A stretch of 64,000 bases of DNA from positions 248,001 through 312,000 of the forward strand of contig NZ_BMGP01000001.1 in the NCBI RefSeq assembly GCF_014640255.1. The letters run 5' to 3'. The notes under the pieces were generated by a model that had not been told where the DNA came from, searched no databases, and saw only the letters and a list, made by a program, of their open reading frames with translations. This document shows, piece after piece, positions 23,438-24,246 of this stretch (position 1 is its first letter; every line of letters begins with the position of its first letter). This stretch comes from Subtercola lobariae. GTDB lineage: Bacteria; Actinomycetota; Actinomycetes; Actinomycetales; Microbacteriaceae. Position numbers and translations under genes: made by a program.

Positions 23438-23466
23438 TGCGTTCATATTGGATTGAGGAGTGAGTT

Positions 23467-24246
23467 GTGGATGATGTCTTAGAGAGGCCGGCGTACGTCG
23501 GTTTCATCGGCGTCGTCTACGGCTTTCGCCTCGAAACCTCGGGTGAGTTCCGCTATGTCGGAATGACTTCCACGAGTATTAGACGGCGAACCCAGCAGCA
23601 CTTCAAGAATGCCGCGGCAGGCCGGAAGACCGCCTTCTACGATTGGTTGCGCAAGGCATCCGAGCAGCACGTTTACGTAGAGTCGTTGGAGGTCGTCACC
23701 TCTTCTCTCGACGATCTCGCGAGATCAGAAGTGGCGTGGATCGAACGTCTGAAAGCGGGCGGACACCGGCTGCTGAATCTGGCGGAGGGTGGCAAAGGCC
23801 CGAACGGATACGTCTGGACCGGCGAACAGAGAAAGGCCGCGGCGATCCGTGCGACTGGTCGACCGGGATTGCATCGCTTCGGGCCAGACTCGCCGATGTT
23901 CGGAAAGCACCACAGCGAGGAGCAGAAGGCTCGCTGGTCGGAGATTCGCAAAGGCTCGATCACTGGCGAGAAAAACCCCAATTACGGCAAGTTCGGGCAA
24001 GATCATCCAGGTTACGGTCACACGATGTCTGCTGAATCGAAGGCCGCGTTAGCTGAGCAGCGGCGAGGTGCGGGCAACCCGAACTTCGGCAAATCGCCCA
24101 GCGCTGAGACGCGTGAAAAGGTTTCGATCTCTCTTCACCGGTTCCACCACACCAACAAGGGCGTAGTGAAGCCCGAATGCCGTCACTGCGTCGATGACGC
24201 GGCACAGAGTCCCACCCCACCGACCGGAGAAAATCCCAATGGCTGA
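23467..24246 (+). CDS. free-standing GIY-YIG homing endonuclease with NUMOD3 motifs, between nrdE and nrdF
   Basis: A 259-residue protein starting at GTG 23467 after GAGGAG (6-nt spacing). The N-terminal GIY-YIG nuclease domain shows GVVYGFRL (GIY strand), FRYVGMTS (YIG strand), the catalytic Arg region SIRRRTQQH and the Glu in [11 protein letters not shown], then [15 protein letters not shown]. The second half carries NUMOD3-type DNA-binding repeats: [43 protein letters not shown] and [16 protein letters not shown]. This architecture is that of phage-type homing endonucleases. The last 8 bp overlap the nrdF start and contain its ribosome site. It splits the normal nrdE-nrdF order while leaving both genes intact. 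Its own translation signal and complete motifs suggest it is expressed. Confidence 0.9.

Follow-up and report, generated by a model that had tools for sequence, protein, structure and literature searches.

Free-standing homing endonucleases have mainly been described in phages, and the presence of a gene for one between nrdE and nrdF of a chromosomal class Ib ribonucleotide reductase (RNR) operon in Subtercola lobariae raises the question of whether it is a mobile element with a preferred site or a settled member of the operon. There are precedents among phages. In T4, the homing endonuclease gene (HEG) mobE separates nrdA from nrdB, its start overlapping the stop codon of nrdA, and the free-standing endonucleases of this phage cut hundreds to thousands of bp away (PMC2988022, available part). 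Phage RNR genes are described as containing introns, inteins, and HEGs (PMC3653736, available part), and nuclease genes as clustering near RNR genes in phages (PMC10448857, available part). No HEG between nrdE and nrdF of a bacterial chromosome was found in the literature searched, which is thin on subscription journals and offers no proof of novelty. The comparisons described here indicate that the S. lobariae gene is very probably a mobile, free-standing GIY-YIG HEG whose specific site is the junction of nrdE and nrdF in class Ib operons of actinobacteria.

The nrd operon of S. lobariae

The window is the whole stretch of DNA analyzed, 64,000 nucleotides of the 0.9-Mb contig NZ_BMGP01000001.1 (positions 248,001 to 312,000), and it contains the gene order nrdH-nrdI-nrdE-HEG-nrdF (Table 1). 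Families (f), genera (g), genomes (G), and loci (L) are designated by arbitrary codes, in which G000 is the S. lobariae genome and g1 its genus. The nrdE gene ends in a TGA stop, 29 bp upstream of the GTG start of the HEG, and six bases separate this GTG from the GAGGAG preceding it. Both NrdE and NrdF match their profiles over the full length (for NrdF, 4-324/324 of NF007182 and 1-316/316 of TIGR04171), and both genes are therefore uninterrupted. A sequence-only reading of this DNA had described a GIY-YIG plus NUMOD3 ORF with its own GAGGAG, 29 bp past nrdE, whose last 8 bp overlap the start of nrdF and supply its ribosome site, between two full-length nrd genes. The coordinates, the Pfam matches, and the profile coverage agree with this description, the GGAG of nrdF being located inside the ORF.

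Across positions 20000-26000, no Rfam family reaches its threshold, so that no known intron is seen there, and no sigma-70-like promoter was found in 23300-24400. The HEG is free-standing and not encoded by a group I intron, as it has no Rfam match and scores below the cut-off of TIGR01453 (53.6 bits against 56.05). Location of the HEG inside an intron or intein is ruled out by the lack of an Rfam match together with the wholeness of both neighbors. A prophage-borne operon was also considered and seems unlikely; congeneric genomes with an empty junction share the order of nrdE and nrdF. The HEG is single copy in the S. lobariae genome (search at E <= 10), and there is one nrdF per genome in g1.

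Table 1. Features of the S. lobariae nrd operon, in positions of the window
Feature	Positions	Strand	Evidence
nrdH (glutaredoxin-like)	20640..20876	+	Pfam PF00462, E 1.5e-14
nrdI	20898..21305	+	Pfam PF07972, E 8.5e-46
nrdE, class Ib RNR large subunit, uninterrupted	21290..23437	+	TIGR04170, 1247 bits, profile 1-698/698
Last 33 bp of nrdE, proposed target or co-converted flank	23405..23437	+	Ser (AGC) vs Glu in 10/10 empty congeners
GAGGAG, Shine-Dalgarno-like site of the HEG	23455..23460	+	Sequence
Free-standing GIY-YIG homing endonuclease gene (HEG), 259 aa, GTG start	23467..24246	+	Pfam, PHROGs, fold search
GIY-YIG nuclease domain, residues 16-95	23512..23751	+	Pfam PF01541; model; Foldseek top is the I-TevI catalytic domain
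NUMOD3, best-scoring of three stretches, residues 184-220	24016..24126	+	Pfam PF07460, E 5.1e-16
C-terminal H..H.N..C..C motif, residues 224-241, possibly metal-binding	24136..24189	+	39/39 homologues
GGAG, likely nrdF ribosome site, within the HEG	24226..24229	+	Sequence
Overlap of HEG stop and nrdF start, 8 bp	24239..24246	.	Sequence
nrdF, class Ib RNR small subunit, ATG start	24239..25213	+	NF007182, 614 bits; TIGR04171, 483 bits; both above cut-off

The HEG protein

Pfam (E <= 1) identifies in the HEG protein three NUMOD3 stretches (E 5e-16), a GIY-YIG domain with a match (E 3e-5) that passes the cut-off, and a weak GIY_YIG_2 match, and no HNH domain is found at that limit. The protein is also matched by the homing endonuclease family PHROG 314 (E 8e-18). 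A sequence search of solved structures returned a single weak and unrelated match (E 0.6). A structure model from 2 rows was unusable (pLDDT 45), and a model from 8 rows (pLDDT 68) is usable for the nuclease domain alone: the block means are 82-91 for residues 11-100, and the DNA-binding region is of low confidence. In a Foldseek search of this model, the top matches are 1mk0 and 1ln0, both of I-TevI, with a probability of 1.00, a TM score by target of 0.72 and 0.78, and E-values of 0.0076 and 0.019, respectively, with none at or below 0.001.

Tyr30, Gly32, Arg41, His45, and Glu88 are conserved in all 39 intact homologues, the phage one included, and Asn104 in 38 of them. Tyr18 of the first motif is present in 17/17 rows that reach that far, the other 22 rows having been cut short by extraction. 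We take these residues to correspond to the catalytic residues of I-TevI. The sequence-only reading had left room for a protein that lacks nuclease residues; this is not so, as the catalytic positions are kept in 38 or 39 of the 39 homologues. H224, H228, C238, and C241 are likewise kept in 39/39, and the C-terminal motif that they form may bind metal. In genus g90, the median dN/dS is 0.10 for the HEGs (137 of 231 pairs, those with dS < 1.5; 94 saturated pairs were left out) and 0.12 for nrdE, and the dS of the HEGs is about 4.7 times that of nrdE.

Carriers and empty junctions

The HEG is carried by 1 of 12 genomes in g1, by 24 of 206 in g90, and by 6 of 31 sampled genomes in g79, where the center of the sample was picked as a carrier. 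A three-relative profile detects 4 carriers among 398 genomes of the family, 12 among 396 of the order, 5 among 394 of the class, and 1 among 396 of the phylum; these samples overlap, and G000 is counted in each. In total, 41 cellular carriers were found, including S. lobariae and Mycolicibacterium lacusdiani (L003), and the HEG lies directly after nrdE in all of them, one being a fragment. In Mycolicibacterium, nrdF is not the next gene after the HEG, which leaves nrdE as the constant neighbor. That such a gene recurs at this position in another 40 cellular genomes, and in viral contigs as well, is more than chance.

Ten readable empty junctions of g1 measure 50-134 bp. The nearest relative by NrdF, G009, was not scored, as only 10 bp precede nrdF on its contig and nrdE was not detected; nrdE is absent from the stretches of L033 (G009) and L074 (G1146). 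For the 65 loci L198-L262, 48 were used, and 17 have no nrdE match on the stretch. The comparison of junctions among relatives that the sequence-only reading had called for thus yields carriers as well as empties, and the ten empty junctions of g1, against a single carrier, bear out its view of a mobile gene rather than a fixed member of nrdHIEF. Its placement of a HEG in a cellular class Ib nrd operon also extends further, to other families of the order, to Mycolicibacterium, and to phages.

Among the 41 cellular carriers, three have a broken copy, and these are left out of the counts of intact carriers: L051 has a TAA stop at the Tyr of the first (GIY) motif, L283 has a broken frame (L284 being the second piece of this locus), and L057/L148 retains a fragment.

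Viral and phage copies

Forty-eight loci were obtained from IMG/VR. In the ten with the strongest matches (E 2e-29 or better), the HEG is always next to nrdE; nrdF follows it in nine, and the contig end cuts off the tenth. The other 38 (E 8e-11 or weaker) have no NrdE, NrdF, or NrdI match on the DNA examined. L293, a 158.6-kb contig with the HEG in an nrd operon, is probably a real phage. Others may derive from the host, for example the viral-classed contigs L004 and L290, and the HEG matches of L004 and L298 are in broken frames. L004 (IMGVR_UViG_2734481962_000001) is a 4.6-kb viral-classed contig with nrdI-nrdE-HEG-nrdF and several frame breaks, which are perhaps sequencing errors in host DNA; its nrdE tail, TSVEG, is the same as that of S. 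lobariae.

Arthrobacter phage Talia1610 has the order nrdH-nrdI-nrdE-HEG-nrdF, in which the GIY-YIG gene 111 occupies the same operon place as the S. lobariae HEG, and the sister phages Racecar and Mimi have HEG-less nrdE-nrdF junctions of 90 bp. Gene 111 is about 30% identical to the HEG over the aligned length and is annotated only as a G-I-Y Y-I-G endonuclease.

Scattered presence and a short footprint

Trees of nrdE were built from alignment columns 1-1500, which lie far from the junction. On these trees, HEG presence requires 8 changes for 8 carriers in g79 and 5 changes for 5 carriers in g90 (31 rows each), and it is as scattered as possible on both. Both sets were enriched with known carriers: in the g79 set, which also served for the footprint and the tails, carriers G320 and G755 were added and G1135 (empty) and G1146 removed, and in the g90 set G756 and G421 were added and G1175 (empty) and G1178 removed. 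Two close pairs, L144/L159 and L141/L157, differ in HEG presence.

When 22 intact carriers of g90 are compared with 28 empties, net divergence (between-group minus within-group) peaks on both sides of the junction, at 9.9% for the final 30 bp of nrdE and likewise 9.9% for the initial 30 bp of nrdF. In the remaining bins, which extend to 1200 bp in nrdE and to 900 bp in nrdF, it is at most about 0.7%. Neither 30-bp peak was reached by label shuffling (0/5000 each); the next nrdF bins have a faint excess of 0.73 (51/5000 shuffles) and 0.48 (37/5000). The shuffles ignore relatedness, and the flat profile further out serves as an internal control. In g79, a clear excess is limited to nrdE positions -33..-18 (a 15-bp bin with net 4.8%, 6/1000 shuffles), and the footprint on the nrdF side is weak (net 1.1, 59/1000). 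Over the last 60 bp of nrdE in this genus, carrier-empty pairs differ by 20.8% and empty-empty pairs by 19.9%, and for pairs with a distal difference < 6% the values are 19.9 and 21.4%, respectively. Since g79 tails are equally variable among the empties, all 23 of which are unusual, such near-twin comparisons prove little there. The single carrier of g1, S. lobariae, has an nrdE excess at -33..-18 that is no better than about p 0.09, and the nrdF-side footprint is absent from it, as its nrdF start is that of the empty relative L119 except for the start codon. A pattern like the co-conversion tracts that the sequence-only reading proposed to look for is therefore clear in the 30-bp flanks of g90, weaker in g79, and a matter of one genome in g1.

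The HEG tree clusters by genus, with support of 96/90 for g90 and 96/93 for g120. In AU tests, a single clade is not rejected for the HEGs of g79 (p 0.086), for those of the order when Mycolicibacterium is left out (p 0.060), or for those of f6 (p 0.107). Given these clusters and tests, cross-genus transfer of the HEG is suggested, not proven.

The C-terminal tail of NrdE

The tail rule TE[VIL][EDQ]GCVSCxL, formed after inspection of the data, fits 81 of 84 empties outside g79. Within g79, the tail is non-standard in 31/31 genomes, 23 empties included. The nrdE 3' ends of this genus are diverse, unlike those of other genera (L129, L131, L132, L141-L145, L149-L169, L196, L197). In S. lobariae, a Ser replaces the Glu of its ten empty congeners.

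Outside f1, Asn precedes the first Cys in 20/28 intact cellular carriers vs. 3/73 empties. As part of a TEVENC tail, this Asn is found in 6/6 intact carriers of five genera other than g90, Mycolicibacterium included, vs. 2/45 empties, and these tails mostly share the codons GTG GAA AAY (L135 and L136 are exceptions). A prediction made in advance, that new intact carriers of g90 would be without the Gly before the Cys, held in 10 of 18; the other eight keep the Gly, and Ala replaces Met near the end. The rule that carriers have Asn before Cys was dropped, as it failed in these 8/18. The usual g90 tail, TE[VI][ED]GCVSCML, a statement likewise formed after seeing the data, is present in 26/28 empties and in 0/22 intact carriers (Fisher p 3e-12, ignoring relatedness). 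On average, 19 independent tree contrasts place the non-standard tail with the HEG in 9.7, against it in 0.1, and without difference in 9.3 (median p 0.002, range 0.001-0.065). For the two tail types of g90, 3 changes are needed on the HEG tree (0-1/500 shuffles as low) and 5 on the nrdE tree (44-45/500). A linked Ser codon, TCN, is present in 20/22 carriers vs. 9/28 empties of g90, and in 24/28 vs. 35/73 overall outside f1. The broken HEG of L051 adjoins an unchanged tail, and that of L283, in g90, an Asn tail. We read the tail as a short flank that probably travels with the HEG, to which selection for immunity may add.

Fit of the HEG into the operon

Of the 38 carriers in which nrdF is adjacent to the HEG (L051 included), 37 have an nrdF start that overlaps the HEG stop, by 4 bp in 32, 8 bp in 4, and 1 bp in 1, and the remaining carrier has a 16-bp gap. 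In this count, the nrdF start was set by alignment for g90 (23 carriers), and for the other 15 carriers a start 4 bp before the HEG end was preferred among several in-frame. In 107 empties, the aligned nrdF start lies at least 6 bp past the nrdE stop. A strong nrdE-nrdF hairpin is found in 28/28 empties of g90 and in 0/24 carriers (two broken ones included), and the cassette in this genus replaces the intergenic region instead of adding to it. Because in S. lobariae the likely nrdF ribosome site lies inside the HEG and the stop and start overlap, nrdF translation is predicted to be coupled to that of the HEG.

The g90 hairpin (e.g., L089) is conserved and G+C-rich. In the one folded (-37 kcal/mol, z -5.8), it has a 14-bp stem and no T tail, and it possibly sets the nrdE:nrdF ratio.

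A proposed homing cycle and its alternatives

If the HEG homes to this junction, the enzyme, expressed from the nrd operon, would cleave alleles that lack the HEG, either in the junction or next to it, with the 3' end of nrdE as the most likely place. The flank changes in g90, the 15-bp bin in g79, and the single case of S. lobariae point to this end as the likeliest target, with the 5' end of nrdF as the second candidate. Repair from the carrier copy would then replace the short intergenic region by a cassette of HEG and nrdF ribosome site and would reach up to ~30 bp into nrdE and 0-30 bp into nrdF, the extent over which the flanks differ. The insertion, the changed flank, or both would keep the carrier allele from being a target again. 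As the cassette removed nrdF's own leader, nrdF would be started from the site seen inside the HEG, and coupling to HEG translation would be expected. Some copies decay, as in the three broken ones, and the gene could be regained by transfer, for which phages with nrd operons are plausible vehicles. Invasion, keeping, and decay of the HEG would fit the homing cycle. It is conceivable, though we lean against it, that the cassette in addition holds the operon hostage: as the 3' end of the HEG holds the nrdF ribosome site and the start overlap, and the nrdE-nrdF leader is replaced, deletion or loss of frame would be costly, and repeated invasion would drive changes in a near-invariant nrdE tail. 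The context for this is that the tails of HEG-rich g79 are all non-standard, vs. 81/84 standard tails in empties elsewhere.

Purifying selection on the HEG like that on nrdE, the stop/start overlap in 37/38 carriers, and a hairpin present in 28/28 g90 empties vs. 0/24 carriers, with which expression could differ, would also be consistent with domestication, in which the nuclease homologue serves the host, for instance in NrdF dosage or in damage sensing at nrd. An active HEG shows purifying selection too, however, and 11/12 genomes of g1 and 182/206 of g90 have no HEG match, close pairs differ in presence (L144/L159, L141/L157), copies are broken in L051, L057, and L283, and the HEG also occurs in phage nrd operons. 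We therefore consider domestication very unlikely, and a domesticated gene that is fixed in the operon is rejected by the sporadic presence. An old gene of the ancestral operon, inherited vertically and repeatedly deleted, could be sporadic as well, and the HEG tree does broadly follow genera (g90, g120), with AU tests that do not reject genus- or order-wise clades. Against such a history, the state changes equal the number of carriers in two genera, 28/28 g90 empties share one conserved hairpin junction with no tblastn match to the HEG, the footprint fades within ~30 bp of the junction, and the g90 tail types need fewer changes on the HEG tree (3) than on the nrdE tree (5); this makes vertical descent with loss improbable. 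Viral-classed carrier contigs with nrd operons, such as L293, would suit an inert HEG moved passively by recombination of phage or plasmid nrd operons with the chromosome. Such replacement of whole operons would leave long tracts, whereas the divergence in g90 is confined to ~30 bp on each side, and catalytic residues and reading frame are kept, so that a mere passenger appears hardly credible.

A separate alternative leaves the gene a HEG and concerns the flanks, which might be recoded rather than converted, through selection for immunity or for the nrdF translation start. This has some appeal, although we think it the weaker account of the flanks. In g90, G to A at nrdF +12 and C to A/G at +15, both synonymous, are fixed between 28/28 empties and 22/22 carriers and are present in both tail types; tails are altered differently by group (Asn, Ala, Ser, Met/Leu); and L051, broken by TAA at the GIY-motif Tyr, lies beside an unchanged tail. 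Replacement of a stretch, on the other hand, fits the linked Ser TCN of g90 carriers (20/22 vs. 9/28), and recoding does not readily explain the same TEVENC tail in 6/6 carriers of five other genera vs. 2/45 empties, its mostly identical codons (GTG GAA AAY, except L135 and L136), or the Asn tail beside the broken g90 HEG of L283.

Relation to known systems

Like T4 MobE, the mobile, junction-specific HEG proposed here is free-standing, lies between class I RNR subunit genes as an apparently promoter-less operon cassette, and has a start/stop overlap with a neighbor (PMC2988022, available part). MobE is an HNH enzyme among class Ia phage genes, whereas the S. lobariae HEG is of the GIY-YIG type in chromosomal class Ib nrdEF, and MobE overlaps the stop of the upstream nrdA, whereas the S. 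lobariae HEG overlaps the start of the downstream nrdF. In contrast to the distances of hundreds to thousands of bp at which T4 enzymes cut (PMC2988022, available part), the footprint of the nrdE-nrdF HEG is ~30 bp. The catalytic domain is of the same type as in the T4 Seg endonucleases and I-TevI; unlike I-TevI, which is intron-encoded, the S. lobariae HEG is without an Rfam match. Introns and inteins in nrdE and nrdF (SPbeta, Twort, Brochothrix A9, P1201) are similarly mobile elements of class Ib genes, some with HEGs (PMC3653736, available part), but they interrupt the genes, and at S. lobariae both genes are whole.

In several families, bacterial chromosomes have a HEG that recurs as third cistron in a core metabolic operon. 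Many sites are naturally empty, the footprint is sharp in one genus, some copies are broken, and the arrangement also exists in phages. Homing between chromosome and phage, tract length, and the effect on the downstream gene are directly testable with existing strains and phages.

Other genes at and near nrd junctions

Three HEG-less junctions, 493-647 bp long, hold other inserts: L083/L196 (G1142), L088/L195 (G403), and L099/L178 (G1177). Each contains a stretch that resembles a ribosome site, together with a small ORF (32-68 aa), and two of these ORFs, from g90, are alike (YRSA.TGR.VT...TTVKE). The small ORFs have no Pfam match (three searched) and no PHROG match (two tested). In Gordonia phage GodonK (L285), another GIY-YIG gene, at 4315-5019, lies between DNA polymerase I and nrdF and overlaps nrdF by 4 bp, and the related phage Phendrix (L289) is without it there. 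Just past nrdF in the S. lobariae window, at 25265-26401, a nucleotidyltransferase-domain gene is followed by a 137-aa ORF without a clear match. The two look like a nucleotidyltransferase/partner pair, and the first gene matches the PADLOC candidate PDC-M05A (E 7e-17).
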